Source: a virus
DNA: 28,884 nucleotides
Direction: 5' to 3' (one strand)
Virus record (IMG/VR): IMGVR_UViG_3300022074_000274
Coordinates: 1-28,884 of that record
Shown here: positions 4,959-22,919 of the stretch, one piece after another
How positions within the stretch are numbered: position 1 is the stretch's first letter
Layout of the letters: every line of letters begins with the position of its first letter
Made by a program: the position numbers and the translations under genes
The notes under the pieces: model-generated
The model's database searches: none
What the model was told of the DNA's origin: nothing
What the model saw: the letters and a program-made list of their open reading frames with translations, nothing else

Positions 4959-4964
4959 TTAATT

Positions 4965-5774: not shown

Positions 5775-6056
5775 CTATGGTTTAGGATATTTGTCTTTAG
5801 TTGCTTTGATAGTAGCCTTCCAAGCATCTATGCCTTCATGGTATATTTGATCGAATTGTTGTGCTGTTGATGGATATTCTTTTTGTCTTTTGTTTTGATA
5901 ATCTTGTTTTGTAAATTCAGCTTCTACAACAGTCATATCAATAGTAATTTCTTTGTTGTCTTTATCAAATGCTTTATAAGCATCTGTATCTAAATCTTTA
6001 GTTACACTTACAGCATCACTATACAAATTATAAATACAAGTAGTTTTATCAATCAT
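5775..6056 (-). CDS. Small tail-fibre-associated protein (probable assembly chaperone), copy 2
   Basis: A 93-aa protein starting MIDKTTCIYNLYSDA. The start at 6056 is fixed by an ATGA overlap with the upstream fibre gene; a longer TTG start at 6071 is less likely. Its C-terminus has the pattern EYPS-x-x-QQFDQIYHEGIDAWKATI followed by KDKYPKP. Small proteins with this YP-x(3)-Q-x-D-x-x-Y-x-x-G-x-x-x-W motif commonly follow fibre genes in marine cyanophages and related phages. A fibre assembly or chaperone role is inferred from position only. The 121-aa protein at 7297-7662 ends with a related motif, so the two are probably distant paralogues. This is the last gene of the - strand arm. Confidence 0.7.
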   Translation of the reverse strand: MIDKTTCIYNLYSDAVSVTKDLDTDAYKAFDKDNKEITIDMTVVEAEFTKQDYQNKRQKEYPSTAQQFDQIYHEGIDAWKATIKATKDKYPKP

Positions 6057-7294
6057 GGTGTTACCTCCCAAGCTACCATATAACTACCACTATACCCATA
6101 ATAAGCTGTCCCAGAACCATCAGTAGCGTGTCTAGTTTGATATGTTATTTCATTAGTTCCGGGACTTGAGTGAAACCAAAATAAAACATGGCTAAATGCA
6201 AAACTTGAGTTATCTCCATCATCACCAAGTTGCATATATCTTCCGTTAGCTACACTGCCACCGATAGAATAAGTCAGCATATGTTTCCATGATCTACCAC
6301 TTTGATTATTACCACCGCTAGTTTGATTCATAATAATTATTTTATTACTATTACTGGTTGGTGTTATTACTAAAGTATGACCAGTATCCGTTAAATTTGA
6401 ACTTGATGTTGAATGTTGCGAACTATAGTATGAAGTTACACATTGTATTACCTTACTTGTAATTCCTGTTAGTGAAGATCCATCAATAGCTGGTAAAGCT
6501 CCTGTTAATTTAGAAGCAGCCATGCCATTTATCTTTGCATCTGTAACTGCATTAGAAGCAATATTACCAGCAGCTATTGTGCCGCTACCAATCTTAGCTC
6601 CTGTAATAATAGAGTCTTGTATTTTATTTGCATTGTTAATTGCACCAGCAGCTATCTTTGCTCCTGTTACTGAATCAGTTGCAAGCTCTGTAGCTGTTAT
6701 ATTGCCAGCAGCAATTTTAGCTGTTGTAACTGCGTCATCCCCTAGCTTGGCAGTACTGACCGCAAGATCTCCTAGTTTAGCCGTTGTAACTTGACCTGTG
6801 TTTATTTTGTCACTAACAATAGCGTTTGTTGCTATTTCTGTACTACCTACAGCACTAGCTCCTATCTTAGCATTAGTAACTGCATCATCAGCCAATTTAG
6901 CTTCTGTTATACTTCCATCTGCTACAGAACCAGATATACTTAACTGCCCTGCCATACTGCTATGACTACTGCATTGGTAGTACAAAGTATCAGGTGCATC
7001 ATGCGGTACTGTAAATACTATCTCTGTACCATTACCTCCACCATTATTAGTTACTCCTGTATTGTAGGCATCATTCGTACCACCATTAGCAATACTGGTT
7101 TTTATATAGAAAGGGTGTCCACCTGATCTATTCTCAAAGATATAAGTATGACCTCTGCTAAGAGTTAACGTAGGGTCATTTACTGCACCTGTAAGACCTT
7201 TACCTGTAAACGTATAGTGATCTGTACCACTAGCACCTAAGACATATCTAAGGGTGTCTTCAATAGCCCTTGATGATACTTGTGTTAAAGGCAT
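6053..7294 (-). CDS. Tail fibre-like protein with N-terminal cupredoxin-type domain
   Basis: A 413-aa protein in three parts. Residues 26-120 resemble a cupredoxin (plastocyanin-like) fold: LSRGHTYIFENRSGGHPFYI, then FTVPHDAPDTLYYQCSSHSS and M114. His60, Cys108, His111 and Met114 match the four type 1 copper ligands (H, C-x2-H-x2-M). Residues 124-262 are short repeats of the form D-x-A-V-T-x-A-K-I, which usually build an elongated trimeric shaft. Residues 265-413 are Ser/Gly/Tyr-rich (MLTYSIGGSVANGRYMQL, YGYSGSYMVAWEVTP) and look like a receptor-binding tip. It lies between two small chaperone-like genes in the fibre cluster and is probably a virion fibre. Whether it binds copper is unknown; the domain could be purely structural. 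Confidence 0.75.
   Translation of the reverse strand: MPLTQVSSRAIEDTLRYVLGASGTDHYTFTGKGLTGAVNDPTLTLSRGHTYIFENRSGGHPFYIKTSIANGGTNDAYNTGVTNNGGGNGTEIVFTVPHDAPDTLYYQCSSHSSMAGQLSISGSVADGSITEAKLADDAVTNAKIGASAVGSTEIATNAIVSDKINTGQVTTAKLGDLAVSTAKLGDDAVTTAKIAAGNITATELATDSVTGAKIAAGAINNANKIQDSIITGAKIGSGTIAAGNIASNAVTDAKINGMAASKLTGALPAIDGSSLTGITSKVIQCVTSYYSSQHSTSSSNLTDTGHTLVITPTSNSNKIIIMNQTSGGNNQSGRSWKHMLTYSIGGSVANGRYMQLGDDGDNSSFAFSHVLFWFHSSPGTNEITYQTRHATDGSGTAYYGYSGSYMVAWEVTP
6509..6925 (-). repeat. Degenerate repeat tract encoding the fibre shaft
   Basis: This tract encodes residues 124-262 of the 413-aa fibre. It contains about a dozen degenerate units such as EAKLADDAVTNAKIG, TAKLGDLAVSTAKLGDDAVT and TAKIAAGNITATELATDSVT, recurring about every 10-14 residues. 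The DNA shows matching imperfect repeats built on the codons for A-V-T-x-A-K-I/L. Such tracts can expand or contract by recombination and change fibre length. Confidence 0.75.
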
Positions 7295-7296
7295 GA

Positions 7297-7662
7297 TTAG
7301 CTAGGTTTTGGATTGTCTGTTTTTATTTTTGTAATTGCATCTTTCCAAGTAGTTGTACCATTGAGAGCATCTTTATACTGCATATCTAGCTGCTCTTCTA
7401 TTGGTAAATAAGCTACTTTTCGATTTTCACGAACTGTTTCTTCAGCTATTTTAGCCGTTACTTCTGCCCAAGTTGGTGCTGTTACACCATCTGGAAACAT
7501 ACCTTCTACAGTATCTTTAATTTTAGCAAGACTACATAATTTGTTGTCTGCCTTAAGAGCATTATATTCTGCTTCGGATGTTGGAGGATCTCCTGCATAG
7601 CCGTTATATTTTGAGAAATCATTGTTTAATAATTCTCGAATTGCTGTATCAAAATAAGCCAT
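7297..7662 (-). CDS. Small tail-fibre-associated protein (probable assembly chaperone), copy 1
   Basis: A 121-aa protein starting MAYFDTAIRELLNNDFSKYN. The middle is acidic and helical (SEAEYNALKADNKLCSLAKI, TWAEVTAKIAEETVRENRK). The C-terminus, YLPIEEQLDMQYKDALNG then WKDAITKIKTDNPKPS, resembles the end of the 93-aa protein at 5775-6056: the shared features are YxP/YPxxxQxDxxY, then WKxxI, then PKP. It follows the minor fibre gene by 6 bp and precedes the cupredoxin fibre by 2 bp. A fibre assembly role is inferred from position and from the paired arrangement. I do not recognise a characterised domain. Confidence 0.72.
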   Translation of the reverse strand: MAYFDTAIRELLNNDFSKYNGYAGDPPTSEAEYNALKADNKLCSLAKIKDTVEGMFPDGVTAPTWAEVTAKIAEETVRENRKVAYLPIEEQLDMQYKDALNGTTTWKDAITKIKTDNPKPS

Positions 7663-7668
7663 AATTAA

Positions 7669-8397
7669 TTACCTAATGTATTCAATAACACGAAGAGCAG
7701 AACCAGTACCTTGACTATATCTACTTGCTGTTCCGCTGTCGCTATTAGTTGGGTTTATTACTGATTGCCACCTATGGTCATCATTTGGAAGATACCAAGT
7801 TATATTTGATGTTCCAGCAGCTTTACTAGAAAATACCATTTGAAAATTAAAACCCATTTGATAAGTTACACCACCGTAATCTCTTGACCAAGATTTATAT
7901 TCATAATGACTACCCCATACTATTGCACCTTGTCCTACGTTATTGCCGTAACTTTCATGCGCCCAGATAGTACCATCCATATATAAATCAGTTTCCGTAC
8001 CACCTAATTTTGTAAAACTACCCCAGTTCAGATATGTACCTGTGCCACTAGGCGTAGAACGAGTAGTATTCATAAAAGTTTTTATTTGTTTAATTTTACC
8101 GCCTTGACCCCAAGACAAAGAAGATCCATCTGTCTTAAGAACTTTATCGGCATTACCTGATTGACTAGGTATTCTATCTGGTACACCTTGAGCTACTAAA
8201 TTCCAAGATGCGTGTATAGAACCACCATTAGCTGGTGCATTACCTGTAGTGTTAGCTACAGCTATATATGTAGAAGTATTTTGTAAACCTCCTACTGTGT
8301 CTGTGTAGGCTACAAGATCGTCAACTGTGTAAGCGGTTGCGTTGTTGTAAGTACCTTTCCAGACTTGTTTAATTTTGCCTAGGTCAATAGTTGCCAT
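7669..8397 (-). CDS. Minor tail fibre / adhesin protein (MATIDLGKIK type)
   Basis: A 242-aa protein. The N-terminus, MATIDLGKIKQVWKGTYNNA followed by TAYTVDDLVAYTD and ASWNLVAQG, has the W-x-G-x-Y-x3-x-x-Y-x-V-D-D-x-V layout of small carbohydrate-binding-like modules and matches fibre-associated proteins I know from marine cyanophages and related phages. A linker with KVLKTDGSSLSWGQGG joins it to a Gly/Ser/Tyr/Trp-rich C-terminal domain (YLNWGSFTKLGGTETDLYMD, SHYEYKSWSRDYGGVTYQMG) likely to be a receptor-binding tip. It starts 2 bp after the main tail fibre and is co-directional with the rest of the fibre cluster. Function is inferred from these features; the ligand is unknown. Confidence 0.78.
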   Translation of the reverse strand: MATIDLGKIKQVWKGTYNNATAYTVDDLVAYTDTVGGLQNTSTYIAVANTTGNAPANGGSIHASWNLVAQGVPDRIPSQSGNADKVLKTDGSSLSWGQGGKIKQIKTFMNTTRSTPSGTGTYLNWGSFTKLGGTETDLYMDGTIWAHESYGNNVGQGAIVWGSHYEYKSWSRDYGGVTYQMGFNFQMVFSSKAAGTSNITWYLPNDDHRWQSVINPTNSDSGTASRYSQGTGSALRVIEYIR

Positions 8398-8399
8398 AG

Positions 8400-10775
8400 T
8401 TAAATCGTTGCGATTAATTTACCATTTGCATTTACGCTAAAGGTAAAACCTGTAGCAGCATAAATCACATCTTCAAATGCATCATAAGCTGTACCAGATA
8501 TATTGTCCACACCGCCATTAGTGCTTGTCACGATTAAGTTACCATTGCTGTCTGTATTAAATCCATAGACTTCTGGGGAAGATGCTTGTGCAAAACTTAA
8601 CCCACCGCTTCCATCTGTTTTTAAAAACTCCCCTGCACTTCCATCTTCGGGAAGAATAAAGTCACTTACTTTAGTTAAATTAAGAGGCCCTTTAAAACTT
8701 ATGTGGTTAGTATCTGAGTCGTCTGAATCGAACTCTACTACGTCATTTGAACCTAATTGAATACCACCAAAAGCATTAATTGTACCCGAAAAACTACCAC
8801 CAGTTGCAGGGACAAATCCACTTAAATCAACAACAGCCCAACGTAAACCACCTGAGTCGCCAGATTGTGCTTGCAAGAAATATCCATTAACAGGACTATT
8901 AGATACTTTTAATTTTTCTTCACTAACGACATTCGATTGAAGTATTGCTTCTGTTACTGTGTTGTTGCTTGGAGTTCCAATGTTTACAGTAGTACCCATT
9001 ACTACCGCAAAGTAACTTGCACCAATAGGAGGAGCAGCAGCCAGCTTGACTGTTCCACTAACTAAAGCAAAGCCTTCTGAAGGAGTAGATGTACCAGCAT
9101 TAGGCTTCTGTAATACACCTTCTATTATTAATAATACTTGTTGTGCTGAAGTAGGTGCATTGCTTAAGGTAAAGTCTGTTGTAGTTCCGTCAAATGCAGG
9201 GCTAAGTGTAGATATAAAGAAGTTACCAATACTTTGTGTTTCTTCAAATGCACTTGTAGTTCCGTTATAAACATATAACTTACCTAAAGTCGTATGCCAG
9301 AATAAATCTCCAGAATCATTATTACTTGTAGGAAAACTAGAACCTATCCTGTATCTTTCTCCAAAATCGTTTATATCTCCACTTAAACCTACAAGGTCAT
9401 CTTCTTTTAAAGTTGCTTTATGGTATGTATAATTTTGTCCTGATCCTGTAGAAACAACAAGAAATCTAACACCAGCAGCAACACTAGCTCCACGAAAGTT
9501 TGTAGCAATGCCAGATATATTTACTGTCGTACCACCTACTGTTTGACCAGATGCAGTTCCAGTACTGCTGACAGCCATTCCACCAGCGTCCGCAATACTT
9601 ATAACTACACCTGATTGCGGTTGCGTATTAGGAAAAGAACTCTCATTGGCTATCGCTTCTAAACCACCAATAGGTGCTAGTTGTGCAGCAATATAACTTA
9701 CGACAGCAGCAGAAGTAGGAAAGCTATTATCTGTATCTGACAGGTTATTACCTGTTTGTTTTGTAAGACCATCTAACTGGTTAAGGTCTGCTATATCAGA
9801 TGTCAAAGCTGTACTGTCAGCTAATTTAGAAGCTGTACCAGATTGCATACCAGCTAAAGTAACTAGCTCTGAATCTGCTAATTTATTATTAGTAACTGAG
9901 CTATTTGTTATTTCATTTGTGCCAACTGAGTTGTTTGCAAGATGACTAGCATCCAAAGGGCTGCCAGCTATAAGACTTTTTATTTCTGATATTGTCTGAT
10001 CTGTAGTCGCATTTGCTTCAATGGCGTTTAATTTTGCAAGCAAGGCATCAGTAAAGTTATTAGTATTAGAGTTTGCTTCGTATGCTGTTTTAATCTCTGC
10101 ATTTGTTTGGTCAGCAGTAGCTCCAGTTTCTACGGTATCTAATTTTGTACCATCAGCAGATACATCTCGACCATCAACTGTTCCAGATGTAGCAATATTT
10201 TGAGATCCAAAATCAGGAGAAATCTTTGTTCCCTGTATAGCAGCACTAGCATTTACATCCGCATTAACAATAGTTCCATCAAGAATTTGTGTTGAAGAAA
10301 TACTACCGACTCTTTCTAAAAATGCTTTAGTTACTGCATCTTGAGCATTAGTAGGATCTGAAACATTGATTATAGGTTTGCTCTTTGCGTCTTGTCCTTG
10401 CGGTGTATTTTGAATACCAAGAGCAGCTTCATCTTTTGCTTCTTGTATTCCATAAAGCAACTGCAATACAGCAGTATCCAGGTCAGCAGCAGTTAAAGTA
10501 GAGCCATCTACAAAATCAACAAGAGCATTTGTTACTGGAGTATCTCTACTAATTTCAATTCCAACTCCAGACTTAGGCGCACCAGTAGTTTCTTGAGTAG
10601 TAGTAGCTGAACTAATAGAACTAAATTCAATAGTCGTATCGTTTACAAAAGTAAAATTAGTGTTAGCTACATTGTTAAGTGCAACAACTATATGGTCTTT
10701 TATTACATAAGGGAAAGGTATAGAGAATTGTTTTGTTGAACCATCCCCAGTACCAGTAAATTGTGCAAAAGGCAT
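8400..10775 (-). CDS. Tail fibre protein with T7 gp17-type N-terminal anchor
   Basis: A 791-aa fibre. Residues 1-150 form the T7 tail-fibre anchor domain that binds the tail: TKQFSIPFPYVIKDHIVVAL, VDFVDGSTLTAADLDTAVLQ and YGIQEAKDEA are all diagnostic. The shaft has two copies of an E-x-x-A-T-x-DQT-x-x-EIK unit near residues 216-229 and 251-264, then Ser/Thr/Gly/Asn-rich fibre sequence. Near residues 460-530 is a segment (YRIGSSFPTSNNDSGDLFWH, TLGKLYVYNG) of a kind common in marine phage fibres. The C-terminus has EVYGFNTDSNGNLIVTS and FTFSVNANGKLIATI, also typical of such fibres. The start overlaps the upstream giant gene by one base (TAATG). It binds the host surface, but the receptor cannot be predicted. 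Confidence 0.93.
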   Translation of the reverse strand: MPFAQFTGTGDGSTKQFSIPFPYVIKDHIVVALNNVANTNFTFVNDTTIEFSSISSATTTQETTGAPKSGVGIEISRDTPVTNALVDFVDGSTLTAADLDTAVLQLLYGIQEAKDEAALGIQNTPQGQDAKSKPIINVSDPTNAQDAVTKAFLERVGSISSTQILDGTIVNADVNASAAIQGTKISPDFGSQNIATSGTVDGRDVSADGTKLDTVETGATADQTNAEIKTAYEANSNTNNFTDALLAKLNAIEANATTDQTISEIKSLIAGSPLDASHLANNSVGTNEITNSSVTNNKLADSELVTLAGMQSGTASKLADSTALTSDIADLNQLDGLTKQTGNNLSDTDNSFPTSAAVVSYIAAQLAPIGGLEAIANESSFPNTQPQSGVVISIADAGGMAVSSTGTASGQTVGGTTVNISGIATNFRGASVAAGVRFLVVSTGSGQNYTYHKATLKEDDLVGLSGDINDFGERYRIGSSFPTSNNDSGDLFWHTTLGKLYVYNGTTSAFEETQSIGNFFISTLSPAFDGTTTDFTLSNAPTSAQQVLLIIEGVLQKPNAGTSTPSEGFALVSGTVKLAAAPPIGASYFAVVMGTTVNIGTPSNNTVTEAILQSNVVSEEKLKVSNSPVNGYFLQAQSGDSGGLRWAVVDLSGFVPATGGSFSGTINAFGGIQLGSNDVVEFDSDDSDTNHISFKGPLNLTKVSDFILPEDGSAGEFLKTDGSGGLSFAQASSPEVYGFNTDSNGNLIVTSTNGGVDNISGTAYDAFEDVIYAATGFTFSVNANGKLIATI

Positions 10776-13700
10776 TACATTGTCCTAACGTCTGTGTTTA
10801 CTATAGATCGCCATGCTTCAACTTGATTAGGAAAATCATTGGCAGTTGAACTGACCTTTCTATTTAATATCTTATTCTGATTTCTTAAGTGTTTCAAGTA
10901 TGGTTTTGTTCCGTCAAAATGTCTTACTGTGGCATTTCTGTATATTTTAGCTAATTCGTCAATTTCAGCTAACTTTGTAAGTTTGGCTGACCTAGATACT
11001 ATGTTCCTGGGTTGACCAGTTACATCAAATTCTGGATCATAGTCAGGTAAGTCTCTATACATTGGACTATTAATTAAATTTTCTAATGCTTGAGCAAAAG
11101 TTAATCCAGTAGAAGGATTTTTATATGTAGTCATAAATTCTCTAAATTCCATAAATTCTTGATTACTCATTGAATAACCTTTTATTCCTAAACTTGATCT
11201 AGTGCTAAATCTTGGATATGACCCAAAGCCATGCAATCTAGAAAGCTCTTTATATACATTTCCGTTACGTTCTCTTGTAGGTCTAAACATAGCTAAGGGA
11301 TGGATATTCATAACTAACATTCTTAGAAATGGATTGTTCATTCTTTCAGCACCATAAGCATAGTCGTACTCTACTGGCTGACCATATATAGGATCTAACT
11401 CAGGAGTACCAAACGCATTTTGTAGTCCAGGTATCTCGCTGAATATTTCAGAAGCGAGGTCGGCTGCTGTTGCGTACCAAGTTCTTTCTCCAGTTTTAGA
11501 ATTAACAGACTCGTTTATTAAATATCTTTTATTGTCAAATCCAATTCTTGTTTGTCTTAATAATGCTAAAGGCATCTTCATATAACGTGCAATAGTTTTT
11601 TCAAGCAAATTGCGTTTTCCTGTATAAATATTTTGATTACCACTTTCTTCTGATGACATCAATTCTTGAAGTAAATCGTAGAAATTACCAATATTAGCCA
11701 TAACACTTTTTCTAAAGTAGCCTACAGTATTTTCTTTAATTGTATCTCCTATAGCTTTTGCTGCTGTATAACCATCAAACCTTCTTAGAGTATGAGCATT
11801 AGCAATAATATATCCTTCTTGAGCTGAATTACTATAATCAATTTCAGCGTTTTCATCAAAAGGTATTTCAAATTGGCTATCTCTAGGCATACGTTTTATT
11901 GCATCTACATAACCACCTATAGATCCAAAAACAAAACTAGCAGTATCAAACATATCCATAGCGTACCAATGTGACCATTCTTCACTTCCAGGAGTTCTAA
12001 ATCTTACTGCGTTTGGAGGTCTGTGTTTGTATCTGTTTAAATCACTTCTATTAGGATTTGTTGTTTGTGGTCCACTAAATTCCACTAAGCCAGTAGCAAC
12101 CGCACCGATACCTAATGAGAACAAGTGCATACTTGTTGAGATTTCTCCTAAAGCTCTTTCTCTTTGGAATAGATCTTCAGATGTTATATCTCTCCAGTAA
12201 CTATCTACTAGCCTGTTTGTTGGCAACGGAAGGTGTCGCAAAGCTCCTTTTACTAGGTTTAACGGAGTTCTGTTTGTAGGGAATACAACTCCCATAAGAG
12301 GTACAGCTCTTGTTGCTTTTTGAATTAAACTTGAAGGAGCATTTAAACCTTTCATTGCAATATTATCTACCCCTGTTGCGTTAGTAGGTAATCCCATTCC
12401 AAAGGCTCTAAATTGATCGTTGGTAGGTTCTGAAGCCTTTGTAAAATAATCCAAGTTGTTTGGATCTGCGTCTTGTTTATATTGTTCAGCAAAATCTAAA
12501 ATATCTTCTGGTTCAGTTAAGCCTGTTTCTTGCGCTCTTCTTATTCCATATTCAGTTGTTCTTTGATTTCTTTCGACTTCTATACTATCTGTAAAGTTTA
12601 CATAATCAGCAGCTTGTCGGGCATGAGAACTATCCATAAATCCACCTTTTATCAAACTTCCATCTGGCATTTCTACATCTGCTAAAGACCTGGTTAAAGC
12701 TGCTTCAGCTTTTTTATGTGCTTCGTTAAAGATTCTAGGATCGTGCATATCAAACCCTGCCATCATTTTTTGAAATAGCTCTTGCTCCATTAGCCTGGAA
12801 TATTCATAAGCTGGTGCAACTGTCATACCAACCAATGTGTCTAACCCACTCATTACCCTTGAAGCTCCAGAACCAAATACAGTTTTTACTCCTTTAGTTA
12901 GGTAGTTAGCGGACAAGATGATTGGATTAGTTTCTGGATTAGTTAAATGCTTCGATACTCCTTTACCTCCAGCTAACATTCTTCTTGCTTCTCCATCTAT
13001 ATCCTCTTGAACATAGTCGTCAAACCTTCTAATTTTAGGTTGTTTCCCTGGGTTCTTACTTCTTCTATATCCGTCCGCTTCAAAGTAACCTCTGTGAATA
13101 TTACCGAATACTTCATCATGTTTTACTGCTGATAAAGCCAATCTCATAGCGTGTGCAGAATGAATAAAGTATCTAAGATACATAGTTAGATTTAATTGCT
13201 GACGCATTTTTGCCATCCTTGCTCCGTCTATATCTCCAGCAGCTAAAGCCTTACGCTTAGTCTTTCCAGCTCCATGAAACTGTGAGTATGGCAATGTCAT
13301 AGCTCTAAATAAACTACCGCCTAAAACTTTTCCAAGCGTTGCAGAGTTTAAGAAAATACCATTTCTTGCTATATTTGCAATTTTTTCCTGGGTTAACCTA
13401 CCATCCCCTACAGTATCTAAGCCTTTGGCAAAGTTAGTCATAAAGTTATTCATTGCCTTAGTCTTGTCTTTATATAGATAAAGCGATTCAGCTATTACTT
13501 CCATTATTGCTTTTGCTTCTTTTGTTGGTTTGTTATTCATTACGCTGTCATAATCTTTCTTCTTCATTAATTTTTCAAATATATTTTCTTGCTCTAGTAT
13601 TGCTTGCTTAAAGACACCTGGGATAGATTGCTGCTCTGGCATATCAGTTAAGTTATCTCCTTCCTGGACTTGTGCTTTTGAGTTAATTATTTTATTTGCT

Positions 13701-16700
13701 TGGTTACTGTCAGGAACATAAATAATATCTCCATCCTGTCCAAATTCTGCACCATCAAGCCTGATTCCTTGATACTTTTTAGATGCTAAATATTCCCCTA
13801 AAACTTTCTTTTGTGCGTCTGTTAGCTTGTTGTCAGCTACAACTCCTAAGCCTTCTATATTTAATTCCTTTAATAGTTGAGATAACGATTTATTTTGTGA
13901 TGTTAAATCAAGAACTAGCATATCTGCATTAACGACTCCATCTACAAAACTAGATTTTTCCCTTACTCCTCCATCAACAGATTTAAAATATGTACCTTTT
14001 CCTAGTCCTTCGTCTTTAACTAATCCAGCTTTTTCTACTCCTTCGTTTAGTGCAGACTTACCAGCCTTAGAACTTCCGACATTCATTTCAATTCGTTGGT
14101 ATGGAGGTATAAACATTTCTTGCCTACCTAAGAAATCCATTTGCTGCATCCTTAAGTTTTGAGCTGAAGGTCTATTTACTTCTGCTATTGCAACACTTAC
14201 TTTCATTGCATCTTCCCATAAGGAAATCAATAAAGTTTTTGATGTATTGTCGTTAGGTTTTAATTTTATATCCAAGGCAACTTCTTTCATTTGCTGTATC
14301 TGTACGTCTCTAAGTAAAATTATTGATGCCTGGGCGACTTGTTTTTGCAATGCGTTGCTATCTCCTTGCATTGCTTTTTTATGCGTGGCTAATATTTCTT
14401 CTGTTCTAAAATTGCTTTCAGTTACTAATTGCAACGCTAACCTTTTCATGTTGTCCATAGTAAAGGAAGGTATTTTTGTAGCATCTTCTCTTGTTCCTAG
14501 CACTTCAAACAAGCTAGTTTCAAATGTTTTATTAGCAGCAATTATGTCTGTTTGATCTGTTGGTATATATTTCTTTCCTTCGGGTTTCATTTTTCTATTA
14601 ATCAATCTTCTATACATTCCATCCATTGCTTCTTCGATAGTCATATCTCCGTCTCTTATCGCAACTTTTAATGTCTCTAAATTGCCTACAAATTCGTCTG
14701 GATCTATAGAATAGCTAGGCGATTCTGGAGCTGTATTCATTGGAAGTTTATCTGCTCTAGGATTTCTTTGAGCTAATCTTCCTTCTTGTGCGTCTCTAAA
14801 GATTTCTTTATATGATTTATAGCCATAGCCACTAAGTTTATTATTTATTTTTTCTGCAATTTCTTTTAATTTTTTAAATGGCTGTAGCCAGGTAGGTTCT
14901 TTTGCAAAGTCAAGTTGGTCAAATACTGAAAAAGCAAATGCCTGGACTTCTCTTTCACTCATTCTTTTAAGTCCAAATAAATATTTTTGATGTTTAGGGT
15001 AAAACGCTGCAACTATTTCTCTTAACTTTCTATCTACTGCTGGACTATCTAATAAGTTTTGTTCTTTAAGAGTAAGGTATCTATCTTGAATCCTATGGAA
15101 TGATTCATGTCTCAATGTTTGCATCATTGATCCAAACTGCTGAAAATGACCTTTATAAGTCATTGCAAGAACTATTAAATCTTTTGAAGGAGTCGAACCA
15201 AATCTAAATAAACCTTTAGCTCTGCCAGTTTGACCTATTGCAGAAGGAGGTAAACCATAAGCTGCTGCTGATTTAGCATTTATTTTAGGCTCTATAGCAT
15301 CAACAAGCCGTAAGTTTTGGACGTTCGCACCAGCTATTTTTCTAGCTATATCAACTAATTCTTGTGCTTGTTGCTCTGTAAGTGTTGTATCAGCATAAAC
15401 GTGTTCGTTACCCATATTTGTATATACATCATCCGACAAAGCAAACTCTAATTGCTCATTGTTTTTAGGGTCAAGTGGGTCAAAATTCTCAGGATTAGTC
15501 GAATCTTTATATTCTTTGTTGTATTTATCCTGGAGTTTTTTGTTTGCTTTCTTTACATTTTCGTTTTCTAAATCTCCTAAATCTAATTCAAAGTCTGCAT
15601 CATCAACATTTTTTACTTGTATCGGATCTTTTAATAATTCTACATAAGCCATGCTATTTCTTAAGGTAAGTTCTCCATCAGCAAATTGAGCTGCATTACT
15701 TAAACCTTTTAATTCATTTTTCATTTCCATATATGCCTTATGTCTTGCACCAGAACTAATGCCAATTTCGTCTAAGAAAGCAGTAAATTCAGCATCTTTT
15801 TTAGACTTTTTAGTCCACCTATTACCTGTAATATAAATAGCTCTATCAATGTCGTTAGCAAATTCAATTGTATATTGACCATATCTAGGCTTTGCTGACC
15901 CAGCCCACCTAGTAGAACTGAAATCTAATTTGGGATATTTACCCATTAAAGTAGGATATAGCAATCCAAAACTTGCGTCATTTAATTCCGAAGCGTCATT
16001 AAACTTATAACCTCCTTCAGTTATATATGGGAAAGTTTTTCTTTTTGTAGATGTAACTGAAGAATCTAAAACTTCTCCAATCTTTGAATGGTTTTTATTT
16101 AACGAGCCATTGTTTGCAACCAGCTCGTCCTCCAGGTCAAATATTTCTTTTTCAGAAAATCCCTGTAATAATTCTTCTTTTTCTTTATTTATGACTTTTT
16201 GTACTTCTTCCTTTTTAATTGGCTCAGGTTTTTCGTTTCTTAATATATCGTTAGCTTTTTCATTTAATCTTGTATCAACTTCTTGTTGCACTCTTGCTGG
16301 CTCTGATAACACCTTAGTTAAAGGTGCATCATCTGTAGCCATAGTTTCTCTTATAAGATCAAAGTTATCATTTACTATTGCTTTTGCTGATATTGGACCA
16401 GTTTTCATTTGAGCAGCTAATTCATTAATTAACCTATTTGTTCCTGATACGGAATAAGCCAAGCCTTCAAATCTTTCAGCCTGTCTTTCAGCTTCAAGCC
16501 TTTTATCAACTGAGTCGTCATAATCAATCTTATTGCCTTCTACTTTTTCAATAGCAGCTTTTTTATTCTTTTGAGTTACAGCTCTAAGTCCACTTATTTC
16601 TGTCCTAAGTTTTCTTAAAAATGTTTCTGCTATAGCTGTTATTTCTGGTAGATTATTTTCTTTCGACCATTGCTCTAGTCCTGGCAACGTACCTTCCTTA

Positions 16701-19339
16701 ACTGTTTCTACTGACCTAGTAGATGCAAGCATCAACTGTCTTATTCTGTCTGCGCTAAATTTAGTGTTTTTAGCATACTTGCTGTAAACAAAATTTATTG
16801 ACTCAAGACTAGCTCCTTCAACAGAGCCTAATGCTAACGCTTTGTTATAAGCTAATTCTTTAGTTGCAACTTTATCTAGAATATTTCTTGGTAGTCGAGA
16901 TAATTGAGTACCTTCGATCATTAAAGTATTTGTAAGAGTTATACCTTTTTCCGCTAATGACTCTAATGTTTCTCCGCTATTTTGCATAAACAAAGCAACA
17001 TCCATTGCTGTCATAGAACCTCGAACAGATGTTCCTTGAGCAATATTCTTTAGAGCTGATATTGTTTGCGCTTCTTTAACTGTTGCTACATCTACAAACC
17101 TTACATCTATTTCTCCTACTCCTGATCTTTGAGCAAGATCAAGCCTGTTGTGACCATCAACAACATATACTTTGCCAACTTCTCCTATCTCCCCTGTGGA
17201 ATCTCTCCATACTGTTAATAAGTCAGCCAGATTAGGGTCGAAGGAACTAGCTTCTTTTAGTGAACCACTTACTCCTTTATTGTTAAATTTACCTTCAGCT
17301 TTAACTTGAAAAACAGTTGGGTTTACTGTTAAATCGCTTGTTTTAATTTTTGCTATTTCGCCAGCAGTAGGAGAAGCTAATCCAACACTTGTACCAAGTT
17401 GATTATTAAGTCCTCTGTCTGAGTCTGGTCTTACTTGTGCTTGAATTTTTGTTTCCGCTTCAATTTCTTTTGTAGCTTCGCCTAATGCTGTTGCTGCTTT
17501 TTTAACTATATTTTGTGATTTTTTAACTTCAGTTTCAAGATCAATTTGCTCTTGCTGTGTATATTTTTTCTCCCATTGAGGAGATTTTACGTCTCCTTCT
17601 TTCTTGTAATAAGCTAATAAATCTTTACCTGGTGCATCTTCATCTGTTTCTCCTACTCTAATAGGTTGTCTTTGCTTGCCATCTAATGCTCTTTCAGGAG
17701 GTGGGGTTTGTGTTTCTTCTACTGTGTCAGACTTTACTGTATTTTCTAGCTGTCCTTTAGTTGCTTCATCTGCATCTAGCTTTGCTCTAATTTTTTTATA
17801 GTATTCTATTGCGTCATATTCTTTCTTTAAAGTATCTGCGTTATCTACTGCTGCTTCAAATATCTTCCATTTACTTAAATAATTAACTAATGGTGCAATT
17901 ATCCTTGACTCTGCGGAATCGACCATTGATTTTAAATGGTTAGAAGCTACTGAAAAACCATAATCCTCTGCTGTTTTTGTACCAATAGACTTATCCAATA
18001 CATCCATCTGTGTATATTTTGTTGGAAATTGTCCTGGAAATGCTCCCTTAAATCCACCTTGAGCAAACTTTCTTGAGACGTTTAGTGCTTTACCTCCAGC
18101 TCCAAACGCTACTCCCATAGGAATACCATTAATTATTTCATTTACAAAGATGGATTTTATTTTTGCTTCAACAAATGGATCATTTAACCTTGCGTTATTG
18201 TTGATTCCTTCGGGTAAAAGGTTATCCATCAAAGAAGGTTGGTATGGATCTCCTAAAATAGTTTCTGCTATAAGCGAATTTCTTGCTCCTTCAACTGCGT
18301 TTTTAGCTATAAACTTACTTACTTTGCTAACTCTTGGCATATTGACAGACATCCAACTTATAGCTTTAGAAAGTTGAGGAGACGCAGCTTTAGCCTTTTT
18401 AAAGACGTTAGCAGCATAAACATATTCGTCTGGTAGTCCAGGAGTTAAAACTTTAGCGGCAGCAAATGTTGCAAAGAAAGGCGCAGCTTCCCCGACAAAA
18501 GTTGTTGTCATGTCAGCTAATGGTCTGCCAGTATCTATAACTGGATAACCTCCAACCAATTCATCAAAAGAAGCTCCTTTACCTCCAAGTAATCCCCAGT
18601 TTTCGCCAGCCAATCTATCTTGACCACTCATAGGTTCAAAGTCAGGATCGTCTTTTACTTGAAATGGGTCAGTTCCTTTTTCAATATTTTTAAAAATTTC
18701 ACTATTAAGTAAACCTGTTTTGCTTGCATCAAGCATACTCATTCGGTTATTAACGTCTCCTAGTTTTTTAAAAAATTCTGGCAAACTTTTTTTATCAATT
18801 CCAGCCTTTACCGCTTTCATTGCTAATGCCTGTGAACCGACAACATCCCCTGTTAACATTTCTGCCATAAATCCAGGCATATCCATTCTTATCATGTCGT
18901 TAACAGTATTATTTATTCCTGTTACACCGCTAATTGCTGTCCTCTCAACTATGCGAGACAAATCCCCTAAAGAATTTCTTAGCCTAAACTGCCCTCGAAG
19001 TTCATCTGGTGCGTATTTACCTTTGTAGTCTTTACTAAAAATATTTAATTTATCGTATAAGCCTAATACTGGAGAAGATGTTTTTGAATCTTTGCCTATT
19101 CCAAAACCTATATCATTTTTAAACTTTTCTGTATAATAATTATCTGAATGAATTTCTCCAGGAGGAGTCGTATTTACTGGAGGAGCTGTATCTATATCAT
19201 CAGTAATAAATTCTTCTTCATTTCCATAGCGTAAATTATACAGATCAATATTTGTTTCTGGAGCTTGAGCTAATGTTGCGTCTAGACTTCGACCCCCTTC
19301 GGTATTATTTTCATCAACTATTAATTCCTTTTCTGCCAT
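10775..19339 (-). CDS. Giant internal virion / DNA-ejection protein (gp16 position) with ParB-like and zinc-peptidase-like domains
   Basis: At 2854 aa this is about twice T7 gp16 (about 1318 aa), but it holds the gp16 position between gp15-like and fibre genes, so it is probably ejected into the host. Residues about 270-420 are hydrophobic and helical. Residues about 500-650 are a charged linker or coiled coil. Residues about 660-800 look ParB-like, with VYVVDGHNRLDLAQ (Asp728, His730, Arg732). Residues about 1080-1230 resemble segments of large phage polyvalent proteins (FANDIDRAIYI...). Residues about 1310-1500 carry HExxH (LRHESFHRIQ, His1411, Glu1412, His1415) with candidate third ligand Glu1464 in EREVQAFAF. 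Residues about 1752-1890 could be ADP-ribosyltransferase-like. The last 900 residues are helical with a hydrophobic stretch near 2405-2425. No lytic transglycosylase domain was recognised. Domain calls are by eye. Confidence 0.88.
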   Translation of the reverse strand: MAEKELIVDENNTEGGRSLDATLAQAPETNIDLYNLRYGNEEEFITDDIDTAPPVNTTPPGEIHSDNYYTEKFKNDIGFGIGKDSKTSSPVLGLYDKLNIFSKDYKGKYAPDELRGQFRLRNSLGDLSRIVERTAISGVTGINNTVNDMIRMDMPGFMAEMLTGDVVGSQALAMKAVKAGIDKKSLPEFFKKLGDVNNRMSMLDASKTGLLNSEIFKNIEKGTDPFQVKDDPDFEPMSGQDRLAGENWGLLGGKGASFDELVGGYPVIDTGRPLADMTTTFVGEAAPFFATFAAAKVLTPGLPDEYVYAANVFKKAKAASPQLSKAISWMSVNMPRVSKVSKFIAKNAVEGARNSLIAETILGDPYQPSLMDNLLPEGINNNARLNDPFVEAKIKSIFVNEIINGIPMGVAFGAGGKALNVSRKFAQGGFKGAFPGQFPTKYTQMDVLDKSIGTKTAEDYGFSVASNHLKSMVDSAESRIIAPLVNYLSKWKIFEAAVDNADTLKKEYDAIEYYKKIRAKLDADEATKGQLENTVKSDTVEETQTPPPERALDGKQRQPIRVGETDEDAPGKDLLAYYKKEGDVKSPQWEKKYTQQEQIDLETEVKKSQNIVKKAATALGEATKEIEAETKIQAQVRPDSDRGLNNQLGTSVGLASPTAGEIAKIKTSDLTVNPTVFQVKAEGKFNNKGVSGSLKEASSFDPNLADLLTVWRDSTGEIGEVGKVYVVDGHNRLDLAQRSGVGEIDVRFVDVATVKEAQTISALKNIAQGTSVRGSMTAMDVALFMQNSGETLESLAEKGITLTNTLMIEGTQLSRLPRNILDKVATKELAYNKALALGSVEGASLESINFVYSKYAKNTKFSADRIRQLMLASTRSVETVKEGTLPGLEQWSKENNLPEITAIAETFLRKLRTEISGLRAVTQKNKKAAIEKVEGNKIDYDDSVDKRLEAERQAERFEGLAYSVSGTNRLINELAAQMKTGPISAKAIVNDNFDLIRETMATDDAPLTKVLSEPARVQQEVDTRLNEKANDILRNEKPEPIKKEEVQKVINKEKEELLQGFSEKEIFDLEDELVANNGSLNKNHSKIGEVLDSSVTSTKRKTFPYITEGGYKFNDASELNDASFGLLYPTLMGKYPKLDFSSTRWAGSAKPRYGQYTIEFANDIDRAIYITGNRWTKKSKKDAEFTAFLDEIGISSGARHKAYMEMKNELKGLSNAAQFADGELTLRNSMAYVELLKDPIQVKNVDDADFELDLGDLENENVKKANKKLQDKYNKEYKDSTNPENFDPLDPKNNEQLEFALSDDVYTNMGNEHVYADTTLTEQQAQELVDIARKIAGANVQNLRLVDAIEPKINAKSAAAYGLPPSAIGQTGRAKGLFRFGSTPSKDLIVLAMTYKGHFQQFGSMMQTLRHESFHRIQDRYLTLKEQNLLDSPAVDRKLREIVAAFYPKHQKYLFGLKRMSEREVQAFAFSVFDQLDFAKEPTWLQPFKKLKEIAEKINNKLSGYGYKSYKEIFRDAQEGRLAQRNPRADKLPMNTAPESPSYSIDPDEFVGNLETLKVAIRDGDMTIEEAMDGMYRRLINRKMKPEGKKYIPTDQTDIIAANKTFETSLFEVLGTREDATKIPSFTMDNMKRLALQLVTESNFRTEEILATHKKAMQGDSNALQKQVAQASIILLRDVQIQQMKEVALDIKLKPNDNTSKTLLISLWEDAMKVSVAIAEVNRPSAQNLRMQQMDFLGRQEMFIPPYQRIEMNVGSSKAGKSALNEGVEKAGLVKDEGLGKGTYFKSVDGGVREKSSFVDGVVNADMLVLDLTSQNKSLSQLLKELNIEGLGVVADNKLTDAQKKVLGEYLASKKYQGIRLDGAEFGQDGDIIYVPDSNQANKIINSKAQVQEGDNLTDMPEQQSIPGVFKQAILEQENIFEKLMKKKDYDSVMNNKPTKEAKAIMEVIAESLYLYKDKTKAMNNFMTNFAKGLDTVGDGRLTQEKIANIARNGIFLNSATLGKVLGGSLFRAMTLPYSQFHGAGKTKRKALAAGDIDGARMAKMRQQLNLTMYLRYFIHSAHAMRLALSAVKHDEVFGNIHRGYFEADGYRRSKNPGKQPKIRRFDDYVQEDIDGEARRMLAGGKGVSKHLTNPETNPIILSANYLTKGVKTVFGSGASRVMSGLDTLVGMTVAPAYEYSRLMEQELFQKMMAGFDMHDPRIFNEAHKKAEAALTRSLADVEMPDGSLIKGGFMDSSHARQAADYVNFTDSIEVERNQRTTEYGIRRAQETGLTEPEDILDFAEQYKQDADPNNLDYFTKASEPTNDQFRAFGMGLPTNATGVDNIAMKGLNAPSSLIQKATRAVPLMGVVFPTNRTPLNLVKGALRHLPLPTNRLVDSYWRDITSEDLFQRERALGEISTSMHLFSLGIGAVATGLVEFSGPQTTNPNRSDLNRYKHRPPNAVRFRTPGSEEWSHWYAMDMFDTASFVFGSIGGYVDAIKRMPRDSQFEIPFDENAEIDYSNSAQEGYIIANAHTLRRFDGYTAAKAIGDTIKENTVGYFRKSVMANIGNFYDLLQELMSSEESGNQNIYTGKRNLLEKTIARYMKMPLALLRQTRIGFDNKRYLINESVNSKTGERTWYATAADLASEIFSEIPGLQNAFGTPELDPIYGQPVEYDYAYGAERMNNPFLRMLVMNIHPLAMFRPTRERNGNVYKELSRLHGFGSYPRFSTRSSLGIKGYSMSNQEFMEFREFMTTYKNPSTGLTFAQALENLINSPMYRDLPDYDPEFDVTGQPRNIVSRSAKLTKLAEIDELAKIYRNATVRHFDGTKPYLKHLRNQNKILNRKVSSTANDFPNQVEAWRSIVNTDVRTM

Positions 19340-19341
19340 GC

Positions 19342-22224
19342 TTAGAATGTTTTAGTTGTTTGATATAAATTAATCTTATCCTGTACTTCGTTAAATGTCT
19401 CTACTCCGTTTAAAGTCATTAAAAATTCTTTTTGTTGAGGAAAGTCTCTAAGGTTTTCTGGAATACTTTTATGACTCCAATCAATAGTATTATTTTCTGT
19501 TACCGCTTCTGGGTATAAATTTTTAACAGAATTTTCTGTTTCAAAAATAATAAACGATCCAAAATTAACTCCGTCTCCTCCGTCTCCTCCATATTTATCT
19601 GTAACTTTAACTATTTCAAAAGCGTTTTCTAGGTTTTTGTATGCTGAACTAATTTTATTTTGCATACCTCTCTGTCTTAATTTGAACTCTTTTCCTTTAA
19701 GTGCTTCGGCAGTTTTTATATTGTTGTTTATTTCTTCTAAAGGACTGATAAACACACCTCCTTGAGTCGTGCCATTTCTTCCTGTAAACAAAACATTAAA
19801 ATAAAATTTTACCCCTGCATCTGGATTAAACATAACTCCATTAGGAGAATCTAAATGCAAAGCAAAACTATACTCCGAAGTTCCAGCAACATTTAAATTA
19901 TCTGCATCAAAATTTACAGGATCAAGCCTGTTTATAATATCCCCATAACCTCCTTTTGATTGTTCAACATAGCTAGTACCAGGATCATTTTCTCCGTACC
20001 ATTCTAAAGTTGCCGATTGACCTGTAGATAGCGGATCGACTCCTTGACCTTCAATATATTTTTTAAAATTACCATTCTCTTTGTCGTTCCTGTATTGGTC
20101 AAGAAGCTTATTTTGAGTTACTTTACTTCCATCAGAACTTAAATCAAAGTAATTATCAATCAAATAATTTTCTGTTGCACCTCTTATTTGTTCCCATGCT
20201 GCGTTTATTGTTGCAGCATCAGCAGAAGGAGTATGTGCTTTGTAAGCATCTTTAAATTCTTTTTCTAATTGGGATAAAGAAGAATTAACTTGTGCTGCTA
20301 TTAAAGAACCTTCCATCTGGTCTATCTTTTCCGATAACTTTGAAGTATCTTTATTTAAAGCCATAGGAGTTTTTCCGTAAATTGTTTCCATAACTCTAAA
20401 ATTTCTATAATATTGATTACATTGAGAACTACTTTTATCTGACGATAAAATACATTTATTAGCGTCTCCTTTTAAAAGTTTTAAATCTTGACCAAATTCT
20501 AAAGGAGTTAGATCGTAAACAAGATTTTTTAGAACTGTGTCTCTATCACTTTGTAATTCTTCAATTCTTTGATTAAATTCAAATTGAGTTATCTTGCCAG
20601 CATCTAACTTGTTATTTAACTCTTTTTCTTTGTTTTGATAATTTTCTTCTATTTTTGATAATATTACTTTCTTAGCTGAAATAACATTACTATCTGCTCT
20701 AATTGTATTTTCTGTTCCGTTGTTGTTGTAATTTAAAAGTATTGCTTTAGCGTTTTGATCTTCGTCCCCATCAATAAATACTTCATCTGTACCAGCCATT
20801 AAGTCGCCTTGATTATTTATCGACCTAACTGTTTTATCTGCTTTATTAAAATCGTCTCTTTCTCTAATAATATCAACAACCATATCTCTTATAAATCTTT
20901 TTCCTCCCAAAGTATCAATAAAAAATGTATTTAATTTATAGCCAGTAACGTCTCCTTTGTTGTTTTTTATTTCAGAATATCTGCTATTACTTGGACCAAA
21001 GCCAATTCCTTGAAATTCTCCATCTACCCCATAAAAAATTTCTTCCATTTTGTCTATCAGGCTTAAGCCATCAAGGTCATAACCTTTACCAACAGACATA
21101 AATAAGTCTTTATATAGCTGTTTTTTCTGCTCAAGACTTAAATTGGAATCGTTTATTCTTTCTACAATTAATCCAACTTGTTCGCTAGTTTTAGCATCTG
21201 TAAATGTTTCATCATTTTTTATGCTAGTTCCTAAAGAGTCAATACTTTTAATTACTTGTGCAGAAGTTTGCGTATTTAATATGGTGTCATAGGCTTTATT
21301 TTGTGATGTTCTATCGTTTAATTTGTGCTGAGTAACATATCCTTCGACATTATTATGTTCAAAAATTCCTAAATTTGTTCCTCCGTAAACGTGTTTATTG
21401 TAAGCAGCTTTATATCTTGGATCGCTTGGGTCTAATTCACTAAGAAGGACTTGTTCAACTACTGGCTTTGTTACTCCATCTACGACTTCGGTTTCTACTT
21501 GCCCTTTATTATTAATTTTAAATACTTGGTTTCCGTTTTTATCTAACTTATCTACTGAATATGCCTTATCAAATTTAACTGAATCCCAACTAGATAAGTT
21601 GTCATATACTTTTCTTTCTTCTTCTATTGAATACAAAGTATTTTGTAATCTTTTATTTTTTCGTATTTCTAATAGCGTTCTTTCTGCATTTATTACTTCT
21701 AGTTCATCTGCGTCCGACCAAGTACCTGACTTGTTATCTTTTTTCTCAACAATTTTTTCTAATTGATTTTCTATAGATTTAAGTCTTTTAGCTGGATTTA
21801 ATTCTTTACCATCATTAGTTAACTGAAACGTATCTAATATTTGTGTAGCTTGACCTGTTAATGCTTTTTGTTCTTTTACTCTAAAATTTGTGTATTGATC
21901 TGGTAATTCTTCGATCTCTCTCTTAAGAGATCCCATATTATCTATAAATGCTTGAAATTCATTTTGCTTTGCAACTCTTGTCTCATCATAAAAATTATCT
22001 ACTGAAGGAAGATCTAATGTAGGTACTAAGTTAGGCTCAGTAGGCTTTGAATAACTTTCTCCATACCATTTAAATTGTTGTATTTTTGGTGCTTGAAATT
22101 GTAAATCAACTTGGCTTACGTCTCCAGTAGATCCCCCAGCAGCAGATTGACCTCTCTTTTGATTGGCTTTTTTCTTTGGATTTGCGTCTCCAGGAGTTAA
22201 TCCAGTTGTTTGTAATTTAGCCAT
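19342..22224 (-). CDS. Internal virion protein (T7 gp15 position)
   Basis: A 960-aa soluble, highly charged protein between the gp14-like and giant gp16-position genes. T7 gp15 is about 747 aa. It is rich in Lys, Asp, Asn and Glu with many predicted helices and coiled-coil stretches, such as the region with RLKSIENQLEKIVEKKDNKS and ENYQNKEKELNNKLDAGKIT. The N-terminal 40 residues are Lys/Gly/Ser-rich and probably disordered. No membrane segment, signal peptide or known catalytic motif is apparent. By position it is a component of the internal core that is ejected to form the DNA-translocation channel. Its start shares one base with the previous stop (TAATG), and it ends 2 bp before the giant gene. 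Direct similarity to T7 gp15 cannot be seen by eye, so the call rests mainly on synteny. Confidence 0.8.
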   Translation of the reverse strand: MAKLQTTGLTPGDANPKKKANQKRGQSAAGGSTGDVSQVDLQFQAPKIQQFKWYGESYSKPTEPNLVPTLDLPSVDNFYDETRVAKQNEFQAFIDNMGSLKREIEELPDQYTNFRVKEQKALTGQATQILDTFQLTNDGKELNPAKRLKSIENQLEKIVEKKDNKSGTWSDADELEVINAERTLLEIRKNKRLQNTLYSIEEERKVYDNLSSWDSVKFDKAYSVDKLDKNGNQVFKINNKGQVETEVVDGVTKPVVEQVLLSELDPSDPRYKAAYNKHVYGGTNLGIFEHNNVEGYVTQHKLNDRTSQNKAYDTILNTQTSAQVIKSIDSLGTSIKNDETFTDAKTSEQVGLIVERINDSNLSLEQKKQLYKDLFMSVGKGYDLDGLSLIDKMEEIFYGVDGEFQGIGFGPSNSRYSEIKNNKGDVTGYKLNTFFIDTLGGKRFIRDMVVDIIRERDDFNKADKTVRSINNQGDLMAGTDEVFIDGDEDQNAKAILLNYNNNGTENTIRADSNVISAKKVILSKIEENYQNKEKELNNKLDAGKITQFEFNQRIEELQSDRDTVLKNLVYDLTPLEFGQDLKLLKGDANKCILSSDKSSSQCNQYYRNFRVMETIYGKTPMALNKDTSKLSEKIDQMEGSLIAAQVNSSLSQLEKEFKDAYKAHTPSADAATINAAWEQIRGATENYLIDNYFDLSSDGSKVTQNKLLDQYRNDKENGNFKKYIEGQGVDPLSTGQSATLEWYGENDPGTSYVEQSKGGYGDIINRLDPVNFDADNLNVAGTSEYSFALHLDSPNGVMFNPDAGVKFYFNVLFTGRNGTTQGGVFISPLEEINNNIKTAEALKGKEFKLRQRGMQNKISSAYKNLENAFEIVKVTDKYGGDGGDGVNFGSFIIFETENSVKNLYPEAVTENNTIDWSHKSIPENLRDFPQQKEFLMTLNGVETFNEVQDKINLYQTTKTF

Positions 22225-22919
22225 TATGTAAGATTAGAGTAATGGTTATACATAGCGGTTTGAGCTTTTATAGTTGCTTGATTAGCTTGAACATTCATGT
22301 TATTACCAAACGCACCAACAACCGAGCCAGCCATACCAAGTGCATATGGACCAAAACTAGGCTTGGGTATTTCCAAAGGTTTAACTGGATCAAGATACGT
22401 TTTCTTAAGATATTTTCTTGCACCTCCTCTTCGAGCTGCTCGGTCAGATTGTGCGTCAAGTCGCTGAGTTTGTGATCCTTTAAGTGCAAACGCAGCATTT
22501 CTATTAGTTACAAAATCTGCTGCCGCCCTAGATCTTTCTATCTCTGCTAAAAGAGTCCAGGCATTTTGTCCAATACGTTGTGATGCAACTTCTCCTTTTT
22601 TCTGTAATGCTACTTTTCCTCGTTCTGTTTGTTCTTGCGCCCTTGCTTCCTGTATTTGTTGTTGCTCCATAGTGATCCTGGTCGAATCATTTTGATAAGC
22701 CAGGTCAGCCATAAATTCTGTATGTTGTATAAAGTCATCATTCATCTTATCTCTAGTATCTTCAGTCATTCTGTTTGACTGAGTTTGCAACATCTGACTT
22801 TGATATTGCAAATTATTCTGTGCGTTTTGAAACGCAACATTAGACTTCTGTTGCTGATAAGACATGAATTGCTGTCCTATCCCTATAACTGCACCGACTA
22901 TCGAGATTGCGTCACACAT
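22224..22919 (-). CDS. Internal virion protein (T7 gp14-like)
   Basis: A 231-aa protein that starts MCDAISIVGAVIGIGQQFMS, a hydrophobic N-terminus after Met-Cys, as in T7 gp14 (MCWAAAIPIAISGAQ...). It continues as a long Gln/Asn/Arg-rich helix (QQQKSNVAFQNAQNNLQYQS, RITMEQQQIQEARAQEQTER) and a second hydrophobic segment near the C-terminus (FGPYALGMAGSVVGAFGNN), again as in gp14. In T7 this protein is ejected first and inserts into the outer membrane to begin the DNA channel. AGGA lies about 7 bases before the ATG. The gene is 2 bp after the gp13-like gene and overlaps the next gene by one base, so the ejection-protein genes are probably translated together. Confidence 0.88.
   Translation of the reverse strand: MCDAISIVGAVIGIGQQFMSYQQQKSNVAFQNAQNNLQYQSQMLQTQSNRMTEDTRDKMNDDFIQHTEFMADLAYQNDSTRITMEQQQIQEARAQEQTERGKVALQKKGEVASQRIGQNAWTLLAEIERSRAAADFVTNRNAAFALKGSQTQRLDAQSDRAARRGGARKYLKKTYLDPVKPLEIPKPSFGPYALGMAGSVVGAFGNNMNVQANQATIKAQTAMYNHYSNLT

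Follow-up and report, generated by a model that had tools for sequence, protein, structure and literature searches.

The linear contig of 28,884 bases recorded as IMGVR_UViG_3300022074_000274 in IMG/VR, the whole of which was analyzed and is referred to here as the window, carries a single very large gene (P0001) whose product appears to be a phage ejection protein with a multidomain insertion. P0001 is one uninterrupted open reading frame (ORF) at 10775-19339 on the minus strand, with an ATG start and 2854 codons, encoding a protein of 2854 aa and 318 kDa. As the original prediction had stated, this gene alone takes up almost 30% of the window (29.7%), although the 9 kb of coding sequence mentioned there is in fact 8.565 kb. 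Read 5' to 3' on the minus strand, the surrounding genes encode the major capsid protein (MCP), a gp11-type tube protein (PF17212), a nozzle protein (PF25675), gp13-type and gp14-type (PF24072) internal virion proteins, a 960-aa protein in the gp15 slot, the 2854-aa protein, and a T7-type fiber. Among them, the gp13-type protein (22922-23446, -) was recognized by PHROG_308 (E = 7e-37), with Pfam Phage_T7_Gp13 just under its cut-off, the gp14-type protein (22224-22919, -) by Pfam T7_gp14 (E = 3.6e-8, above cut-off), and the gp15-slot protein (19342-22224, -) by its position. The next gene downstream of P0001 (8400-10775, -) encodes a tail fiber with the T7-fiber N-terminal domain (Pfam Phage_T7_tail, E = 1.2e-30). 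Gene order and Pfam/PHROG assignments thus place P0001 as the last internal virion gene, after the gp14- and gp15-type genes and before the fiber, which is the slot of T7 gp16.

In a tblastn search of 50,697 phage records, the only matches were the 17 P-SCSP1 isolates, at 27% identity across 73% of the window protein, and a short stretch of Nohivirus S31C1; scans of IMG/VR identified 35 distinct loci, falling into three tiers of about 80%, 65%, and 26% identity with a few remote ones besides. All full-length members of the main family have a single ORF in this slot, 2404-2904 aa long and with 23-84% identity; since such diverged full-length relatives keep one long ORF, the gene is not an assembly artefact or a chance reading frame. 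The 2563-aa protein of P-SCSP1u (ULF50148.1), annotated as a hypothetical protein, has the same domain order as the window protein, including a segment resembling ADP-ribosyltransferase (ART), but differs from it in retaining the GT and DE motifs of that segment. P-SCSP1u and P-SCSP2 are MPP-C cyanopodoviruses, and the paper describing this group (Cai et al. 2022) guessed at the large gene from its size and position only, found no matches of the large protein to published phages, and reported no similarity between P-SCSP1a and P-SCSP2 (PMC9860041).

The evidence for the nature of P0001 comes mainly from its two ends. Hidden Markov models (HMMs) were built from family residues 2262-2840 and 268-416 and searched against 1109 ORFs together with reversed and shuffled copies of these, in which neither these HMMs nor those used below for the middle of the protein gave a single match. 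The C-terminal HMM recognized HTVC025P gp39, a pelagiphage internal virion protein D (1246 aa; E = 3.4e-23), 75 of the 79 pelagiphage-type loci, and 22 of the 80 P-SSP7-gp16-type loci; the N-terminal HMM, whose best match had E = 2.5e-8, found the corresponding N-terminal region in 18 pelagiphage-type loci and nothing in the P-SSP7-type set. When whole trimmed profiles were compared by hhalign (run without realignment; the default realignment gave one-column matches), the C-terminal core reached P = 99.8% and the N-terminal segment 91.5%, against 0.2% for the reversed profile. An early comparison that had given 98-99% for nearly everything against the pelagiphage family was discarded because ragged C-terminal columns were to blame, and the trimmed profiles were rechecked against reversed ones. 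Piece by piece, P was 95% for residues 260-420, 62% (weak) for 1896-2260, 99.5% for 2262-2480, and 98.7% for 2480-2854, whereas every piece within 417-1895 remained at or below 6%. The matched pieces are colinear with HTVC025P, so that an N-terminal segment of P0001 (residues 268-416; 18092-18538, -) is homologous to residues ~132-272 of the pelagiphage protein and a C-terminal core (residues ~1960-2854; 10778-13462, -) to residues ~556-1239.

HTVC025P gp39 and P-SSP7 gp16 (1245 aa) occupy the same slot, between the gp15-slot gene and the fiber. The C-terminal core is common to P0001 and to both of these proteins, and the N-terminal segment is shared, in the same order, with the pelagiphage type. 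Both lack the ~1,480-aa middle part of P0001, referred to here as the cassette (residues 417-1895; 13655-18091, -), and have about 290 residues in its place. The simplest reading of these alignments is that P0001 is probably an internal virion protein carrying ~1,480 residues where its relatives have ~290. Three conserved, moderately hydrophobic segments (277-295, 397-415, and 2396-2414) flank the cassette, which follows directly on the second and stops short of the third. P0001 itself has no direct match to PHROG_6651, the family matched by HTVC025P and P-SSP7 gp16, and matches PHROG_21 only. In addition, sequence searches with the whole protein against Pfam, NCBIfam, and the PDB yielded no confident family (a PDB sequence match to "PQQ synthesis C/D" at E = 0.14 was judged to be chance), and the structure model of the C-terminal part, with a mean predicted local distance difference test (pLDDT) score of 46, was too poor to use and had no PDB match at E <= 0.001.

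The cassette, mostly predicted to be helical in the structure model, contains several recognizable parts. Its ParB-like domain (residues 650-1000; 16340-17392, -) has a GHNR box rather than GERR, an ENI-like motif, and helices resembling a helix-turn-helix (HTH). PHROG_21 matched this part with E = 2.3e-25, and in an AlphaFold2 model with pLDDT of about 60-88 over much of it, the top 26 Foldseek matches in the PDB were all ParB, Noc, KorB, or Spo0J (best E = 2.3e-5 over ~218 columns covering the N-domain and HTH), with target-normalized TM (template modelling) scores of 0.34-0.44 on this moderate-confidence model. Box, ENxx motif, and HTH also line up in the same order with Caulobacter ParB in a HMMER alignment, though this is not significant in itself (E = 0.12), and the P-SCSP1u homolog matched TIGR00180 ParB weakly, below cut-off (E = 0.0042). 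A predicted ParB N-domain fold with a GxxR box followed by an HTH is supported by these model-based comparisons. The PHROG_21 match spans P0001 residues 655-979 (window 16403-17377, -); PHROG_21 is annotated as portal protein and was matched in its C-terminal part, an extension of that portal, and a domain of this kind may therefore be attached to portals in other phages. Among modeled viral structures in BFVD, the best neighbor of the model of residues 640-1560 was the Nohivirus protein (E = 5.5e-21), followed by other large polyvalent or ParB proteins, and several of the closest were named "large polyvalent protein associated domain". The polyvalent-associated character proposed in the original prediction is supported by these names, although no Pfam LPD model matched, and the cassette as a whole is supported as polyvalent-type.

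Behind the ParB-like domain lies a short, LPD-like domain defined by family conservation, here called PRYG (residues 1140-1205; 15725-15922, -; "KPRYG...F.NDIDRA.YI"), which is also found in Nohivirus (E = 1.7e-22) and in a 1596-aa protein of P-SCSP2 (E = 5.8e-11). It is followed by a zincin-like region (residues 1311-1545; 14705-15409, -), recognized by its motif, with HESFH at residues 1411-1415 and a putative third ligand, E1464, in EVQAFAF. Among the ORFs listed, HExxH is present in 40 of 40 and ExxAxAF follows 41-58 residues later in 39, which makes the glutamate of the latter a plausible third metal ligand. Neither the ParB nor the zincin HMM matched any ordinary gp16-type protein among the 1109 ORFs. 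The last part is a tentative ART-like segment (residues 1740-1895; 13655-14122, -), found by inspecting motifs in alignment A2, whose likeness to ART lies in motif spacing only; no profile or structure supports it. The P-SCSP1u segment keeps "(K)GTS...YF...DE", whereas in the clade of the window the first motif has been lost, Y1784 is kept, and GD stands in place of DE, leaving the H(or R)-Y-D/E set incomplete, and the segment is missing altogether from loci L037 and L038. ART activity is therefore not relied on in what follows. No published MPTase, ART, LPD, or ddrB-ParB model in Pfam matched P0001 at E <= 1.

Several relatives carry the same parts in a different arrangement. In Nohivirus S31C1, two adjacent genes (BAQ94395.1, 1484 aa, and BAQ94394.1, 1145 aa) together encode the parts found in P0001, and comparable pairs occur in L039 (1415 and 1129 aa), L040, and L065. 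The first gene carries ParB, PRYG, and zincin parts (the full set in Nohivirus and L065) and ends a short way past the zincin, while the second corresponds to the internal-virion-protein core (P = 97.2%; reversed control, 2.5%). At the junction, the second gene restarts two bases after the stop through an ordinary AGGAGG-coupled site. A programmed frameshift or a conserved Cys-Cys junction was considered and rejected, as the "EGC/GGC" that the C-termini share is simply the in-frame translation of the AGGAGG ribosome-binding site. The 1596-aa protein of P-SCSP2 (ULF50193.1) resembles P0001 in having the core (hhalign P = 99.8%) and PRYG, but unlike P0001 has no ParB or zincin HMM match, and the same holds for P-SCSP2-type phages in general (1586-1618 aa). 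For P-SCSP2, g29 and g31 had been named as candidate internal virion proteins (PMC9860041); size and homology instead put the gp16-slot gene at PSCSP2_00030 of the record. Because split-gene and P-SCSP2-type relatives vary in the parts they carry, the gp16 slot is best regarded as modular, and the split genes show that the cassette and the core can exist as two polypeptides, divided just after the zincin.

T7 gp16 (1318 aa) occupies the same genomic slot and has the same role as that proposed for P0001. From its periplasmic N-terminus, the chain passes into a first membrane region (243-410), continues as a DNA-binding hub in the cytoplasm (411-1118), and then reaches another membrane region, and gp16-type ejection proteins in a survey of 14 phages range from 609 to 1337 aa (PMC8954989). 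The lineage of the window doubles this surveyed size, with a polyvalent cassette inserted at one place in a recognizable scaffold, and a sister lineage keeps the parts as two genes. T7 gp16 also has an N-terminal transglycosylase, a phage-specific trait that is not universal among gp16-type proteins; in P0001, its pieces, and the other window proteins scanned, Pfam recognized no peptidoglycan hydrolase or transglycosylase, in agreement with the original prediction. As for the domains of the cassette, P1 DdrB and the N4 virion RNA polymerase are polyvalent proteins that, like P0001, combine several unrelated domains, with ParB-type and MPTase-type ones among them, and are expected to enter with the phage DNA; P0001 unites a ParB-like domain, a zincin-like motif, and an internal-virion core in one polypeptide. 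Unlike the published polyvalent proteins, its domains are nested in a podoviral internal-virion-protein scaffold. MPTase domains have been proposed to cut polyvalent proteins into working parts (Iyer et al. 2017), and P1 DdrB (ParB and MPTase) is cleaved before packaging, whereas the N4 virion RNA polymerase, with its MPTase domain, is packaged uncut (PMC5512222). The terms "gp16" and "internal virion" are absent from the main text of that survey (PMC5512222), and no paper containing both "internal virion protein" and "large polyvalent protein" was found in the open-access literature, subscription papers being outside the search.

Taken together, we estimate a probability of about 0.72 that P0001 is a gp16-slot ejection protein from a marine cyanophage lineage that is T7-like and related to MPP-C, with a cassette inserted between an N-terminal membrane-associated segment and a C-terminal core, and that it works as follows. 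The protein is presumed to be part of the virion, where slot, neighbors, and homology suggest that it would be packaged alongside the gp14- and gp15-type proteins, above the portal. By analogy with T7, it would exit the capsid before the DNA, in unfolded form, and the inner-membrane and cytoplasmic part of the ejectosome would be rebuilt by its scaffold. As the cassette sits between conserved hydrophobic regions, it would reach the host cytoplasm if the topology of T7 gp16 applies. There, the ParB-like domain might hold or coat the DNA that arrives first; the zincin-like domain may free the cassette from the channel core by cutting. Judging from P1 DdrB and the N4 polymerase, cutting before packaging and packaging uncut are both open to P0001. 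Larger ejected proteins exist, such as the N4 virion RNA polymerase of ~3,500 aa. How P0001 could fit the internal core had been raised as a question, and four copies of 318 kDa, the copy number being as in T7 (PMC8954989), would occupy about 2% of the estimated interior of a capsid of 600 Å, the size given for it in PMC10575957. Since the volume is so small and the N4 polymerase is ejected, size is no obstacle.

Other observations weigh against this explanation. Similarity to T7 gp16 was undetectable, with hhalign P <= 1% for the P0001 family, P-SSP7, and the trimmed pelagiphage families alike, and the P-SSP7 gp16 record was assigned "by synteny and size"; for these reasons, "gp16" denotes here a slot and a marine family rather than proven homology to T7. 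The profile match of the gp15-slot protein to the pelagiphage gp15-slot family is weak (P = 41%, 471 colinear columns), and the hydrophobic segments of P0001 are only moderate. The zincin fold was not recovered, the model being of low confidence before HExxH and without a zincin match in Foldseek, nor did any Pfam MPTase model match. Finally, no proteomic or structural evidence for P0001 in the virion was found, and the cryo-electron microscopy paper on P-SCSP1u covers the capsid, portal, adaptor, nozzle, and fiber, with no internal core described in the sections searched.

Part of this evidence could be read differently. It is possible, though on the whole unlikely, that the zincin cuts a precursor before packaging in the manner of P1 DdrB, so that the head receives only the C-terminal core, perhaps together with the N-terminal part, and the cassette acts in assembly or late infection without being injected. 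The DdrB precedent itself, also a ParB and MPTase protein (PMC5512222), the Nohivirus-type relatives that encode the two parts separately with a boundary just after the zincin, and the fact that a freed core would equal ordinary family proteins in size all agree with such a scheme; however, the cassette is nested in the scaffold, so a single cut would leave the N-terminal segment on it, and the N4 polymerase is packaged uncut despite its MPTase domain (PMC5512222). There seems to be little likelihood that the cassette is structural filler, that is, inactive, laterally acquired domains that stabilize a larger core with no enzyme activity left. The loss of defining motifs from the ART-like segment in the clade of the window, its absence from L037 and L038, and the mostly helical prediction would suit filler, but HExxH, ExxAxAF, and the ParB GHNR box are retained down to ~23% overall identity, which would be unexpected for it. 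It is very improbable that P0001 is a large late protein of unrelated role, not an ejection protein, that came to occupy the gp16 slot by chance: virion proteomics and similarity to T7 gp16 are lacking and Cai et al. 2022 had no matches to published phages (PMC9860041), yet annotated internal virion protein D of pelagiphages is homologous to both ends, with their order preserved, the P-SSP7 gp16 family is homologous to the core, and no other gene in the slot could fill the role.

The preferred explanation, a gp16-slot ejection protein with an inserted cassette, bears on the original prediction in several ways. The domain-by-domain profile comparison and the comparison with internal proteins of cyanopodoviruses and pelagiphages, both proposed there, have now been run, with matches at the scaffold ends and no counterpart for 417-1895. 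The ParB-like segment and the long helical C-terminal part were both borne out, the latter being the conserved core, and the N-terminal hydrophobic region turned out to consist of the two moderate segments (277-295 and 397-415), which are set back from the extreme N-terminus. Whereas the HExxH motif held up, the zincin fold did not emerge, and the possible ART segment stays a tentative, degenerate, motif-based one. A merger of the gp16 role with other domains agrees with the architecture (the slot, the T7-type flanking genes, and two ends that are both homologous to internal virion protein D of pelagiphages), and the gp16 identity holds for slot and marine relatives but not for T7 homology. 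The "early host-takeover enzymes" said to have joined it were not upheld, as the sole candidate modifying enzyme, the ART-like segment, is without its first motif in the clade of the window and absent from L037 and L038; the zincin-like and ParB-like parts would be no less compatible with self-processing and DNA binding than with host takeover.

A more specific and rather doubtful extension is that P0001 is a self-processing ejection protein delivering a ParB-type DNA clamp, in which the cassette would cross the inner membrane within the ejectosome, the zincin would free it in the cytoplasm, and the ParB-like domain would load on the genome end to ratchet, shield, or organize it. If true, this would be a T7-like entry machine equipped with a module of its own for DNA management, and the cyanophages concerned are relatives of a group without a DNA polymerase gene. 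Irrespective of this extension, the analysis of P0001 provides the large "hypothetical proteins" of MPP-C phages with an identity, and delivery of polyvalent domains becomes testable in the cultured pair of P-SCSP1u and Prochlorococcus MED4, the phage being purifiable to ~10^13 particles/mL (PMC10575957).

With regard to the lineage, the primase/helicase gene of the window is followed directly by the exonuclease gene (97-2468), an order common to the window, P-SCSP1u, and P-SCSP2, and the latter two have no DNA polymerase gene (PMC9860041). On account of the relationship to these MPP-C phages, the host would be a picocyanobacterium of Prochlorococcus type. The module from MCP to fiber (6053-27761, -) is inverted relative to portal and scaffold (3161-5747, +), whereas in P-SCSP1u and P-SCSP2 the portal-to-fiber/MCP genes all run in one direction. 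In L008 and L017, the portal lies on the opposite strand just after the fibers, as in the window, and of the gene pair beside the window MCP, both lie upstream of MCP in L010 and one of the two in L009. As the same arrangement occurs in independent contigs of the window clade and of the clade at 65% identity, an inversion in the lineage seems more likely than a misassembly.

The fiber region of the window (6480-9911) shares stretches of ~85% DNA identity with P-SCSP2 (OM416780.1, 26263-29285), while the neighboring ejection proteins are hardly alike, which suggests a recent exchange of fibers between the two lineages. Among close relatives of the ejection protein, the downstream fiber genes also differ (323-334 aa plus up to ~1076 aa in L005-L008; 794 and 249 aa in L010), and host-recognition genes therefore appear to swap while the giant protein stays. 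A 413-aa protein of the fiber region (6053-7294, -) contains a cupredoxin-like segment at residues ~40-120, with the type-1 copper ligand spacing H...Cys-x2-His-x2-Met (HPF...YYQCSSHSSM) and a weak match to Pfam Copper-bind (E = 0.041). The same copper-ligand motif was found in P-SCSP2, in L010, and in fiber-region ORFs of the P-SSP7-type contigs L201, L210, and L211.

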